This document shows positions 4,934-39,393 of a DNA stretch of 64,000 nt, piece by piece. The position numbers and the translations under genes are program-made. The DNA lies in the NCBI RefSeq assembly GCF_014982715.1, contig NZ_JADCJY010000002.1, positions 186,001 through 250,000 of the forward strand. Direction: 5' to 3'. Under the pieces are notes generated by a model. That model did not search any database and had not been told where the DNA came from. It was given only the letters and a program-made list of their open reading frames with translations. Within the stretch, counting starts at the first letter, position 1. The number at the start of each line of letters is the position of its first letter. This DNA is from Gallalistipes aquisgranensis (lineage in GTDB: Bacteria; Bacteroidota; Bacteroidia; Bacteroidales; Rikenellaceae).

Positions 4934-6121
4934 ATGGCAAAAGAAAAATTTGACCGGTCCAAACCGCATGTAAACATCGGTACCATCGGACACGTTGACC
5001 ACGGTAAAACCACCCTTACCGCTGCAATCACCACCGTTCTGGCAAAGAAAGGTCTCTCCGAGCTCCGTTCCTTCGACTCTATCGACAACGCTCCCGAGGA
5101 GAAAGAGCGCGGTATCACGATCAACACTTCGCACGTAGAGTACCAGACGGCTAACCGTCACTACGCTCACGTAGACTGCCCGGGACACGCCGACTATGTG
5201 AAGAACATGGTAACGGGTGCAGCCCAGATGGACGGTGCCATCCTCGTGGTAGCCGCTACCGACGGTCCGATGCCCCAGACCAACGAGCACGTGCTGCTGG
5301 CCCGTCAGGTGAACGTTCCGAAGATCGTCGTATTCCTGAACAAATGCGACATGGTTGACGATCCCGAAATGCTCGACCTGGTCGAGATGGAGGTTCGTGA
5401 CCTGCTGAACAAATACAACTTCGACGGCGACAACGCCCCCATCATCCGCGGTTCCGCTCTGGGCGCCCTGAACGGCGATCCGAAATGGGAAGAGAAGGTA
5501 ATGGAGCTTATGGACGCTGTCGACGAGTACATTCCCATTCCTCCCCGCGACAATGAGAAACCCTTCCTGATGCCCGTCGAGGACGTATTCTCGATCACCG
5601 GCCGCGGTACCGTGCTGACCGGACGTGTCGAGACCGGCGTCATCAAAGTCGGCGATCCCGTCGAAATCATCGGTCTGGAAGAGAAGACGCTGACTTCGAC
5701 CTGTACGGGTGTCGAGATGTTCCGTAAGCTGCTCGACAGCGGCGAAGCCGGCGACAACGTAGGTCTGCTGATGCGCGGTATCGACAAGAAAGAGGTTAAG
5801 CGTGGTATGGTCGTTGCCAAACCCGGTTCGATCACCCCGCACACCAAGTTCGAGGCCGAGGTCTATATCCTGAAGAAAGAGGAAGGCGGCCGTCACACTC
5901 CGTTCCACAACAAATACCGTCCCCAGTTCTATCTGCGTACGATGGACGTAACGGGCGAGGTGGAACTGCCCGCAGGCGTTGACATGGTAATGCCGGGCGA
6001 CAACGTGACGATCACCGTAACCCTGATCTACCCCGTCGCTCTGAACGTAGGTCTGCGTTTCGCTATCCGCGAGGGCGGTCGTACGGTAGGTGCCGGTCAG
6101 ATCACCAAGATCATCGAATAA
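4934..6121 (+). CDS. tuf: Translation elongation factor Tu
   Basis: 395-residue GTPase that delivers aminoacyl-tRNA to the ribosome. G1 is GHVDHGKT at residues 19-26, G2 [11 protein letters not shown] near 60, G3 DCPGH near 81-85, and G4 NKCD near 136-139. Domains 2 and 3 follow with [15 protein letters not shown] and the C-terminal GQITKIIE. Length is normal. The ATG at 4934 has the usual MAKEKFDR start and only a weak ribosome site. Codon choice is strongly biased (ggt, cgt, gac), as expected for a highly expressed gene. It is cotranscribed with the three tRNA genes before it. Confidence 0.98.
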
Positions 6122-34857: not shown

Positions 34858-36045
34858 CTATCCCAGGAAGCTGAGCAGCACACCGGCCGCCACGGCACTT
34901 CCGATCACACCGGCCACATTGGGCCCCATGGCGTGCATCAACAGGTAATTGGTCTTGTCGTACTTGATACCCATATCCTGCGACACGCGTGCGGCCAGCG
35001 GTACGGCCGAAACACCCGCATTGCCGATCAGCGGATTGATCTTGTTTCCCTCCTTCAGGAAGAGGTTCATGAACTTCACGAACAGCACGCCCGAAGCCGT
35101 AGCGATGAAGAAGGCACAGGCGCCGATAGCGAACGTACCGACCGATTTCAAGGTCAGGAAGGTGGTCGCCTGGGTGGAGGCACCCACCGTCAGACCGATC
35201 AGAATCGTCACGATGTCGATCATCGGGCCGCTGGCCGTATTGGCCAGACGTTTCGTCACGCCGCACTCCTTGAGCAGGTTCCCGAAGAACAGCATACCCA
35301 GCAGGGGCAAAGCCGAAGGCACCAGGAAAGCCGTGAAGAGCAGTCCGATAATCGGAAAGAGGATTTTTTCGGTCTGCGAAATCTGACGGGGCGGCTTCAT
35401 ATGGATCACGCGCTCTTTCTGGGTGGTCAGCAGGCGCATCACGGGCGGCTGGATCAAAGGCACGAGCGCCATGTACGAATACGCCGAAATAGCAATGGCA
35501 CCCATCAGGTCGGGAGCCAGCCGGCTCGACAGGAAGATGGCCGTGGGACCGTCCGCACCGCCGATGATACCGATAGCCCCGGCCTCAGCTGCCGTATAGT
35601 CGAAACCCAGCGCTCCCAATCCGAGCACCGCCATGTAGGCAGCGAAAATGCCGAACTGCGCAGCAGCGCCCACCAACATCAGTTTAGGATTGGAAATCAG
35701 GGCCGAGAAGTCGGTCATCGCACCGATTCCGAGGAATATCAGCGGAGGATACACCCCTTTCACCACCCCGAAATAGAGGTAGTTGAGCACCGAACCCTCT
35801 TCATAGATGCCCACCTCCATGCCGGGAAAGAACGGGATATTTCCCACGATGATACCGAACCCGATCGGAACCAGCAGCATCGGTTCGAAGTGTTTGGCGA
35901 TCGCCAGATAGATGAAGATCATACCGATCACGATCATGACCAGATGGCCCCACGTCAGGTTGGCGAAACCCGTGAAAGTATAGAACTGCTGAAGATTATC
36001 CCCCAGGAAAGAGAAGAATCCCGGATTTGCTGCTTCTGCCAACAT
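34858..36045 (-). CDS. mmdB: Sodium-translocating decarboxylase beta subunit
   Basis: 395-residue polytopic membrane protein of the OadB/MmdB/GcdB family, the Na+-pumping subunit that decarboxylates carboxybiotin. Conserved stretches include GIGAMTDFSALISNP, IGIIGGADGPTAIFLSS (with the conserved Asp for Na+) and the end MGPNVAGVIGSAVAAG. About ten hydrophobic segments are visible. The neighbouring carboxyltransferase, biotin carrier and epimerase genes identify the substrate as methylmalonyl-CoA. It is the last gene of the operon, 4 bases after the biotin carrier gene. Confidence 0.95.
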   Translation of the reverse strand: MLAEAANPGFFSFLGDNLQQFYTFTGFANLTWGHLVMIVIGMIFIYLAIAKHFEPMLLVPIGFGIIVGNIPFFPGMEVGIYEEGSVLNYLYFGVVKGVYPPLIFLGIGAMTDFSALISNPKLMLVGAAAQFGIFAAYMAVLGLGALGFDYTAAEAGAIGIIGGADGPTAIFLSSRLAPDLMGAIAISAYSYMALVPLIQPPVMRLLTTQKERVIHMKPPRQISQTEKILFPIIGLLFTAFLVPSALPLLGMLFFGNLLKECGVTKRLANTASGPMIDIVTILIGLTVGASTQATTFLTLKSVGTFAIGACAFFIATASGVLFVKFMNLFLKEGNKINPLIGNAGVSAVPLAARVSQDMGIKYDKTNYLLMHAMGPNVAGVIGSAVAAGVLLSFLG

Positions 36046-36049
36046 ATGC

Positions 36050-36490
36050 CTAACCGATTGTCATCAGCACGTCGCCTTCGAGCACCGAATCGCCCTGGTT
36101 GACGCTGACAGATTTCACAATACCTTCCACGTCGGAGTCGATGTTGTTCTCCATCTTCATGGCCTCGAGGATCAGCAGACGCTGGCCGACCGACACGTGG
36201 TCACCCACCTTGACGGCAAGATTCAGCACCACTCCCGGCAGCGGACTCTTCACCGGCGTCCCGGCTCCGGCGGCCTGCGGTTTGGCGGTTTTAGCCACGG
36301 CGGGATGCGCATCGGTCGAAGGAACGACGGGACTCTGCACCAGTTTCGGGGTTTTGGTCTTGGCGGCCACGCCCTCCACTTCCACCGTGTAATCGACCCC
36401 GTTCACCGTCACGTTGGCCTCGTTGTCGTCAACGCTGTTCACCGCCACGGTGTAGTCGTTTCCGTTTATCTTGAATTTATACGTTTTCAT
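36050..36490 (-). CDS. mmdC: Biotin carboxyl carrier protein of the decarboxylase (gamma/BCCP)
   Basis: 146 residues. The C-terminal biotinyl domain has the LEAMKMEN motif with the acceptor Lys, preceded by a Pro/Ala-rich flexible linker (residues about 50-78, with TPKLVQSPVVPSTD and KPQAAGAG). The N-terminal 45 residues form a beta-rich segment starting MKTYKFKINGNDYTV. It shuttles CO2 from the alpha subunit (MmdA) to the beta subunit (MmdB). Confidence 0.93.
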   Translation of the reverse strand: MKTYKFKINGNDYTVAVNSVDDNEANVTVNGVDYTVEVEGVAAKTKTPKLVQSPVVPSTDAHPAVAKTAKPQAAGAGTPVKSPLPGVVLNLAVKVGDHVSVGQRLLILEAMKMENNIDSDVEGIVKSVSVNQGDSVLEGDVLMTIG

Positions 36491-36501: not shown

Positions 36502-37401
36502 TTATTTTTTATTGGGAATTTGACGTAACCCGTAGATCTTGGAACTCCACGGAGAGTATGCCCGGGCCACCCGGTTGATGGTCAGTACGGTAGACTCCTT
36601 GTCGTGCATCTCGCTGCGATACATGTGAAGAGCCATCGCTATGGCGGCTATTTCCGCTTCGCCGCTGAACGTATTGCCTTTCACCTTGTTCAACAACGGT
36701 TCGGAAACCTTGCCGGCAGCATTCTGGTTCTTCTGCGTCACCTTCTTCATGGTCTTGCCCAGCAGGCTGAACAGGATATAGAGGATCAGCAGCGCCGAAA
36801 ACACCACGCTCATGGCCGTAATGGCCATAATGATTCCCGAAGGGTCCATCCGACGGAACTTCTCATGTTTAGGCACCTCGTCGATCACGTCATTCGTAGC
36901 TCCCGGCGTCGTCCGGGGCAGTTTCCCGAATACGGGACCTTCGTCCGTTTCCAGCACGCCGATCGAAACGTCAGGCTCCTGTTCGGAAACCTCGTAACGG
37001 ATTTCATCAATCGGTTTCCCCTTTCCGCTGGCATCCAACAGGGCCAGATAACCCGTCTGGTCCAGCGTGAAATTGGTATGGAACGTTCCCTTGGTGTCGG
37101 TTCCGTCGCAGAAAAAGACAACGTAATCCCGGGGAGCGACCACCGTACGCGGATCGCCCGAAGGAATCCGGTAGGTGTACCGGTTGTCGCCCAGTTTCAC
37201 CGAAAGGTGGGCCCCGGCGAGGTTGACCTTCGAATACCCGGTATTGAAGAGCTCGATCCAGCCGATCCGTTTTCCGTAGTCGTCCTCATAGTTGTCTACG
37301 TTGCGGACCATGACCTCGTTGATCCTGATGTCCTTGATGCCCTGCGCCGAAACGCCCGCACCCAGCATCAGCATCAATCCTAATGCGAACAGTCTCCTCA
37401 T
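36502..37401 (-). CDS. OadG-like decarboxylase subunit fused to an N-terminal lamin tail domain
   Basis: 299 residues. Signal peptide 1-19 (ending GVSAQG). A lamin-tail domain (LTD) fills about 22-178: INEVMVRN, IGWIELFNTGYSKVNLAG, the HTNFTLDQTGYLALLD block and the closing TTPGATND. A membrane helix lies at about 188-210 (GIIMAITAMSVVFSALLILYIL) in the style of OadG, followed by a cytoplasmic tail of about 88 residues with EAEIAAIAMALHMY and YSPWSSKIYGLRQ. Its place between mmdA and mmdC supports a role as the small delta/gamma membrane subunit that anchors the complex. The LTD would lie in the periplasm. Confidence 0.85.
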   Translation of the reverse strand: MRRLFALGLMLMLGAGVSAQGIKDIRINEVMVRNVDNYEDDYGKRIGWIELFNTGYSKVNLAGAHLSVKLGDNRYTYRIPSGDPRTVVAPRDYVVFFCDGTDTKGTFHTNFTLDQTGYLALLDASGKGKPIDEIRYEVSEQEPDVSIGVLETDEGPVFGKLPRTTPGATNDVIDEVPKHEKFRRMDPSGIIMAITAMSVVFSALLILYILFSLLGKTMKKVTQKNQNAAGKVSEPLLNKVKGNTFSGEAEIAAIAMALHMYRSEMHDKESTVLTINRVARAYSPWSSKIYGLRQIPNKK

Positions 37402-37404
37402 AGC

Positions 37405-38967
37405 CTACAACGGAATATTAGAGTGTTTCTTGGCCGGATTGACCAGCTTCTTGGTGGCCAGCGACTGCAGGGCGCGGATGATCCGGAACCGGGTATTGCG
37501 CGGCTCGATCACGTCGTCGATATAACCGTATTTGGCAGCCACGTACGGATTGGCGAACTTGCGCCGGTACTCCGACTCCTTCTCGGCCATGAACTTGGCC
37601 TTCTCCTCCGGATCTTCGATGGCGGCGATCTCCTTCGAAGAGAGCACCTCGATCGCTCCGGCCGGACCCATTACGGCGATTTCGGCCTGCGGCCATGCAT
37701 AGTTGATGTCGCCCCGCAGATGTTTGGAACTCATCACACAGTAGGCACCTCCGTAGGCCTTGCGCAGGATCACCGTCACCTTGGGCACCGTCGCCTCGCC
37801 GTAAGCGAAAAGCAGTTTGGCCCCGTGGATAATGATACCGCCGTATTCCTGGGCCGTTCCCGGCAGGAAGCCCGGTACGTCCACCAGCGTCACGATCGGA
37901 ATATTGAACGCATCGCAGAAACGCACGAAGCGGGCGGCCTTGCGCGAAGCGTTGATATCGAGCACACCGGCCAAATACTTCGGCTGGTTGGCGATAATTC
38001 CCACGCTCTGTCCGTTGAAACGGGCGAAACCCGTCACGATATTGGGAGCGAACAGGCTCTGACTCTCGAGGAATTCCCCGTTGTCCACGACGGCGCGGAT
38101 CACTTCCAGCACGTCGTACGGTTTGTTCGGATTGTCGGGAATGATCTCGTTGAGCGCATCCTCCAGACGGTCGATATCATCGGTGCAGACGGTCAGCGGG
38201 GCATCTTCCAGATTATTCTGGGGCAGATAGCTCAGCAGTTTACGAATCAGCCCCATACCGTCTTCCTCCGTGTCGGCCACGAAATGGGCCACACCGCTTT
38301 TGGCTGCATGGATCGAAGCGCCGCCCAGCTGCTCCTGGCTTACCTCCTCGCCCGTCACCGTCTTCACCACCTTCGGCCCGGTCACGAACATATAGCTCGT
38401 ACCCTTGCTCATGATGATGAAATCGGTCAGCGCCGGCGAATAGACGGCACCACCCGCACAAGGGCCGAAAATAGCCGAAATCTGCGGAATCACGCCCGAA
38501 GCCAGAATGTTGCGCTGGAAAATCTCCGTATAGCCGCTCAGGCTGTTCACACCCTCCTGGATACGGGCACCGCCGGAGTCGTTGATGCCGATCAGCGGAG
38601 CACCGGCCTTCATGGCCATATCCATCACCTTACATATCTTGGCCGCAAAGGTTTCGGAAAGCGAACCGCCGAAGACCGTGAAATCCTGGGCGAAAACATA
38701 GACCAGCCGACCGTCCACGGTGCCGTATCCGGTCACCACGCCGTCGCCGTAATAGGTCTCGTTCTCCAGCCCGAAATTGTGGCAACGGTGCGTGACGAAC
38801 ATGTCGAACTCCTCGAAACTGCCTTCGTCCAGCAGCATTTCGATCCGCTCGCGGGCCGTATATTTACCTTTCTTATGCTGCGAGTCGATCCGTTTCTGTC
38901 CTCCGCCCAGTTTGGCCTGTTCGCGCAGGCGGATCAACTCCTCGATTTTACCCTGATTGCTGCTCAT
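37405..38967 (-). CDS. mmdA: Methylmalonyl-CoA decarboxylase alpha subunit / acyl-CoA carboxyltransferase
   Basis: 520-residue carboxyltransferase with two crotonase-like halves. Motifs: [62 protein letters not shown], and in the second half [23 protein letters not shown] and [15 protein letters not shown]. It moves the carboxyl group from methylmalonyl-CoA to biotin, giving propionyl-CoA. The order with mce upstream and the sodium-pump subunits downstream separates it from a propionyl-CoA carboxylase that works in the ATP-using direction. Confidence 0.95.
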
Positions 38968-38979
38968 AATCCCGTCAGA

Positions 38980-39393
38980 TTATTTCTTGTTCTTATCCTC
39001 GCACAGTTCGGTCAGCACGCCGAAAGTCGATTTCGGGTGCAGGAAAGCGATGCTCAGCCCCTCGGCGCCCTTGCGCGGAGCCTTGTCGATCAGCTGCACG
39101 CCCTTGCTCTCGGCATCAGCCAGCGCATCCTCGACACCCTCCACGGCGAAAGCCACATGATGCACACCGGCCCCCTTCTTTTCGATGAACTTGGCGATCG
39201 TACCGTCTTCCGAAGTCGATTCCAGCAATTCGATCTTGGTCTGCCCCACCTTGAAAAACGCGGTCTTCACCTTCTGGTCGGCGACCTCCTCGATGTTATA
39301 GCACTTCAGGCCCAATACGTTTTCCCAGTACGGAATGGCTTCATCGAGACTCTTGACGGCAATCCCGATGTGTTCGATGTGTGAAACTTTCAT
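38980..39393 (-). CDS. mce: Methylmalonyl-CoA epimerase
   Basis: 137-residue VOC-fold enzyme that interconverts (R)- and (S)-methylmalonyl-CoA. Metal ligands are seen as His in HIEHIGIAV, His in GVHHVAFAV and Glu in VLTELCED. First gene of the mmd operon, with its own promoter. The (R)-isomer made by the B12-dependent mutase must be epimerised before MmdA can use it; the mutase genes themselves are not in this window. Confidence 0.95.

Follow-up and report, generated by a model that had tools for sequence, protein, structure and literature searches.

What is a lamin-tail domain doing on the small membrane subunit of a sodium pump? The question is raised by a gene in the window, the stretch of 64,000 nucleotides from Gallalistipes aquisgranensis analyzed here, in which a lamin-tail domain (LTD) and an OadG-type subunit are encoded in a single frame. 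In the Bacteroidales, which are abundant members of the human gut community, propionate is formed by a pathway whose Na+-pumping step is catalyzed by methylmalonyl-CoA decarboxylase. A sequence-only reading of the locus had drawn attention to the fusion as something exceptional and suggested that the LTD may be a tether between the pump and the cell wall or outer membrane.

The gene (36502..37401, minus strand) starts with ATG, codes for 299 amino acids and is located in an operon with the order epimerase, mmdA, LTD-OadG, biotin carboxyl carrier protein (BCCP) and oadB, all on the minus strand, which agrees with the operon position expected for such a subunit in the sequence-only reading. The mmdA gene for the carboxyltransferase (alpha) subunit (37405..38967, minus strand) matched PF01039 with 681 bits and TIGR01117 with 832.8 bits, below the cut-off of 998.8. 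Downstream of the fusion are the genes for BCCP (36050..36490, minus strand; PF00364, 70.4 bits), with the biotin motif AMKM, and for the membrane-embedded, Na+-translocating beta subunit OadB/MmdB (34858..36045, minus strand), which scored 494.2 bits against TIGR01109 (cut-off 190.6) and 494.1 bits against PF03977. The adjacent methylmalonyl-CoA epimerase (38980..39393, minus strand) is above its own cut-off (TIGR03081, 160.9 bits versus 114.95), which supports methylmalonyl-CoA as the probable substrate of the decarboxylase. Furthermore, the BCCP of Porphyromonas (PG1609) serves as an inner-membrane marker, which places the complex at the inner membrane in the Bacteroidales. We are close to certain that the gene codes for an OadG/MmdD-type subunit of a Na+-translocating decarboxylase pump.

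The protein begins with a signal peptide (residues 1-19; 37345..37401, minus strand) that ends at a signal peptidase I site, VSA/Q, a pattern shared by most homologs and in line with the Q rule for the Bacteroidetes (PMC5837995). The LTD follows (residues 20-171; 36889..37344, minus strand) as a beta-sandwich of predicted periplasmic location; its Pfam match (PF00932) covers residues 20-136 (E 6e-11, 43.1 bits versus a cut-off of 34.3), and the conserved columns of 106 homologs extend the full unit to residue 171, or about 152 amino acids, close to the 155 or so proposed from the sequence. After a short linker with an interfacial helix (residues 172-188; 36838..36888, minus strand), nearly constant in length, comes a single transmembrane helix (residues 189-214; 36760..36837, minus strand), which is expected to pack on OadB, as judged from the match to OAD_gamma (PF04277, residues 189-262, E 5e-12, 46.7 bits versus a cut-off of 27), the positive-inside flank and the beta3gamma3 structure of oxaloacetate decarboxylase (OAD; PMC7274780). 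The C-terminal part (residues 246-299 plus stop; 36502..36666, minus strand), which would bind MmdA, comprises an amphipathic helix predicted to be cytoplasmic and a YSPWSSKIY tail, and no other region of the protein is as conserved as this tail. The fusion and its signal peptide are therefore as first described, both Pfam matches being above their cut-offs. Since the protein scored only 29.7 against the NCBIfam model oadG_fam (TIGR01195, cut-off 36.05) and 13.3 against the MmdD equivalog model (cut-off 150), it represents a divergent member of PF04277 rather than an MmdD equivalog. A fused scaffold subunit that is this divergent and falls below the cut-offs of the standard models is easily overlooked. 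NCBI uses the name “OadG family transporter subunit” for a relative from Parabacteroides, so that the subunit is already known to annotators.

In an AlphaFold model built from 33 aligned fusions, with no partner chains included, most of the LTD block has pLDDT values of 90-96, and helices were predicted at residues 178-185 (short), 190-240 (long) and 247-268 (amphipathic). The best Foldseek matches of the LTD in the PDB were the immunoglobulin-like (Ig) domains of lamin A/C and lamin B1 (E 1.7e-4 to 9e-4), with alignments that span the domain but at an rmsd of 4-7 A. The similarity was recovered by the fold search only; sequence searches of the PDB, whether they started from the protein or from its profile, returned no relevant chain. 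The pump LTD thus has the same fold as the tail of the eukaryotic lamins (1ifr, 3gef, 3umn), but is only 13-17% identical to it and has neither the coiled-coil rod nor a nuclear role.

The exceptional status of the fusion did not survive a broader survey, although the fusion itself is real. An LTD and an OadG domain were found in one frame in 68 of 247 genomes sampled from the Bacteroidales. Among 395 genomes from across the phylum, the fusion was present in 6 matching Bacteroidales, all other OadG matches consisted of the helix-and-tail half only, and LTD matches outside the Bacteroidales were located in other, mostly long, proteins; no fusion was identified in the other sampled genomes of the phylum. 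The architecture is common to 106-108 distinct proteins, which excludes an assembly or frameshift artefact. A scan of named genomes yielded 80 Bacteroidales loci from the Rikenellaceae, Tannerellaceae, Bacteroides, Phocaeicola, Prevotellaceae, Muribaculaceae, Prolixibacteraceae and other Bacteroidales, with the window showing 92% identity to a Rikenellaceae MAG. The fusion adjoins mmdA or BCCP, with the gene order retained, in 80 of these 80 loci as far as the contigs reach, in agreement with its earlier assignment as a probable decarboxylase subunit. The fusion is an order-wide feature of the Bacteroidales and not a local oddity.

During the survey, long open frames in two genomes (G350, G241) were rejected as fusions because they read through upstream of a short OadG, and a frame of 447 amino acids (L244) was rejected as an OadG. 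One Parabacteroides record labeled as a plasmid (L259, NZ_OY725771.1) contains the core operon together with tsaB and gmk and looks like a mislabeled piece of the chromosome. A second, weak LTD match in the same genome as the window, but outside it, is located in a 729-amino acid frame with a lipoprotein-like start (L002) and is no close kin of the pump LTD.

Where, then, is the LTD located? The cytoplasmic flank of the membrane helix is the more positive one in 106 of 106 homologs, and together with the signal peptide ahead of the LTD this predicts with high confidence that the domain is located in the periplasm, as the sequence-only reading had assumed. How far it can reach from the membrane is another matter. 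In 105 of 106 sequences, 18-19 residues lie between the last invariant residue of the LTD (N170) and the start of the membrane helix (G189). In about 14 of 108 proteins, as judged by eye with a pattern list, the AxAQ site is replaced by a lipobox just ahead of the LTD; these forms include members of Bacteroides, Phocaeicola, Mediterranea and the Muribaculaceae, and both ends of the LTD are thus probably at a membrane in Bacteroides and its relatives. Given the constant spacing and the lipobox at its N-terminus, the LTD is most likely positioned on the periplasmic face of the pump. Nine of the lipobox loci, mainly in Bacteroides, Phocaeicola and relatives (L004, L005, L143, L144, L149, L150, L153, L159, L164), combine a lipid anchor with a membrane helix.

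These observations bear directly on the tethering role suggested for the LTD, with the cell wall or the outer membrane as the anchor. Close relatives of the pump LTD occur in secreted proteins of the envelope that have type IX sorting tails, and the lipobox in some members could also be read as a tether. However, the short and near-constant linker keeps the LTD close to the inner membrane, lipidation at the start of the LTD would more simply set both of its ends on that membrane, and the Pfam search of the window protein returned the LTD and OAD_gamma only, with no domain known to bind the wall or the outer membrane. Some closely related pumps, moreover, are found without the LTD and have either no head or an unrelated one. 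We therefore consider the tether unsupported and very unlikely.

The pattern of conservation provides some hints to what the LTD does instead. The mean column entropy is 1.68 bits in the LTD and 1.41 bits in the membrane helix, versus 2.4-3.1 bits in the linkers. One stretch of the domain (Y77, I79-P80-K-G-D83, R91) is conserved in the pump LTDs but varies in the secreted LTDs, which makes it a candidate docking surface; in the window protein itself, several positions of the LTD (S81; 149-153) do not follow the consensus of the pump LTDs. In OadB, many candidate sites are associated with the presence of the LTD, and these are inseparable from phylogeny. Motifs for O-glycosylation in the Bacteroidota were uninformative: they were observed 93 times in the periplasmic parts, compared to 72 expected by shuffling, and none of them is in the window protein.

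The conserved loop could also mean that the head links the pump with a separate partner in the periplasm or the membrane, such as a protein of the envelope or a second Na+ complex (for example Rnf or Nqr), with different heads serving different partners. Both the LTD and the propeller are folds that typically serve in interactions, and three unrelated heads (LTD, propeller and DUF6263, see below) are joined at the same point of the subunit, as would be expected if this were so. However, no partner gene joins the operon along with the head, and sister pumps manage without any head, so that we regard docking to a separate partner as rather unlikely, and retain as the preferred reading that the LTD is held on the periplasmic face of the pump itself.

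The greater surprise is not the single fusion but that a conserved pump operon bears interchangeable heads. The MmdA and OadB proteins of the relatives are mostly about 70-80% identical to those in the window, whereas the N-terminus of OadG differs. Many relatives with the same operon have an OadG with only a short N-terminus and no head. In six genomes (L171-L175, L240), the OadG in the same operon carries a beta-propeller-like head, which in L171 matched the Pfam family choice-of-anchor I with 47.2 bits and in the other five is homologous by sequence; its model contains three four-stranded repeats, or about three blades, at moderate confidence (mean pLDDT 67.6), and its Foldseek matches are propellers. 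A third type of head, observed in two genomes, is a DUF6263 lipoprotein domain fused to OadG, again in the same operon (L176:1357-2673, minus strand, 131.4 bits; L245:499-1827, plus strand, 119.3 bits). We conclude that the pump stays unchanged while its periplasmic head can be exchanged as a module.

On a tree of MmdA, OadB and BCCP, which is approximate because of partial sequences and some weak nodes, the presence of the LTD changes 7 times, as compared to a mean of 38 and a minimum of 30 for random labels; an alternative count on the same tree gives one gain of the LTD and 9 losses. The propeller head appears in two separate places and the DUF6263 head in one. These losses and swaps indicate that the head is dispensable in some lineages, and pumping as such appears not to require it. 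They also raise the possibility that the head has no specific role and came along with a signal peptide that secured the N-out orientation of a short subunit with a single helix, to be kept thereafter by drift and mild selection. Some short OadG proteins (L206, L009) do have a signal-peptide-like start and no folded domain, as this would predict. Yet, the conservation of the LTD is near that of the helix and its pump-specific sites are fixed, which makes the lack of a specific role very unlikely.

At the other end of the protein, the tail also occurs by itself. It is found without the helix beside mmdA and BCCP in two loci with no oadB in the fetched stretch (L261, L263), and between mmdA and BCCP in two others with just a distant relative of oadB nearby (L262, L264). 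Since the tail here stands alone next to mmdA and BCCP without an adjacent oadB ortholog, MmdA/BCCP are indicated as its partners, and these tail-only relatives of OadG may be members of soluble carboxylase complexes. Another genome (L162) has both a tail-only gene (4963-5151, plus strand) and a full LTD-OadG fusion. Its operon (L162:3399-8590, plus strand) consists of mmdA, the tail-only gene, BCCP, the full fusion, a second BCCP and oadB. In Xylanibacter, the scaffold subunit of the decarboxylase was reported as missing, with an unexplained gene of about 50 amino acids between mmdA and mmdC (PMC11575231); we suggest that this gene may represent a stand-alone MmdA-binding tail. We found no paper that links an LTD to OadG or to a decarboxylase and no biochemical evidence on the pump LTD, and searches by the locus tags of B. 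thetaiotaomicron and P. gingivalis returned the biotin carrier only.

From the domains, operon, conservation, linker and alternative heads, all of them directly observed, we infer the topology, complex membership, stoichiometry and role of the subunit as follows. The membrane helix would bind OadB, while the cytoplasmic helix and tail would retain MmdA at the membrane, and with it the biotin carrier. The N-terminus would exit the cell via a cleaved or lipidated signal peptide and, in most Bacteroidales, end in a lamin-tail domain that derives from the secreted LTD proteins common in the Bacteroidota, most simply by fusion of one of these to OadG. The short linker would keep this domain at the pump, on its periplasmic face. 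In the characterized OAD, three gamma subunits surround the beta trimer (beta3gamma3) and the gamma tail binds alpha (PMC7274780); by analogy, a beta3delta3 complex would place three LTDs around the beta trimer. The most likely task of the LTD would be to steady the pump on this face, or to offer a conserved docking surface there, a role for which we regard the chances as even. For the explanation as a whole, that is, a scaffold subunit with an LTD held on the periplasmic face of the pump for steadying or docking, we estimate a probability of roughly 0.55. A bolder and more doubtful hypothesis is that the biotin-dependent Na+ pumps of the Bacteroidota bear their interchangeable heads (LTD, propeller fragment, DUF6263) in order to gate, stabilize or position the pump from the outside.

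If true, a layer of periplasmic control or docking has been added to the biotin-dependent Na+ pumps, and to our knowledge no such layer is known in the characterized pumps of Klebsiella, Salmonella, Veillonella and Clostridium. Our survey charts the form of the scaffold subunit across the Bacteroidales, with a swappable module at its periplasmic end. The secreted LTD proteins of the Bacteroidota, which either have a type IX sorting tail (such as L182 and L183) or are long with at least one LTD, belong to the same subfamily of about 150 residues and score 93-139 bits with the pump-LTD profile, but they are soluble or surface proteins, whereas the LTD of the pump is attached to a pump helix and shows conserved sites of its own that are specific to the pumps. 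The short OadG of other Bacteroidota (for example L188 and L189) has the same gene order and tail, with MmdA and OadB mostly about 70-80% identical, but unlike LTD-OadG it has no folded periplasmic head. Finally, the scaffold subunits OadG, MmdD and GcdD (PF04277) share with LTD-OadG the single helix, the cytoplasmic amphipathic helix and tail, and the location of the gene between those for alpha and the biotin carrier, from which LTD-OadG differs by about 190 additional N-terminal residues (signal peptide and LTD), a tail of the YSPWSSKIY type and NCBIfam scores below the cut-offs. With LTD-OadG, a known subunit thus has a variant that is both real and conserved.
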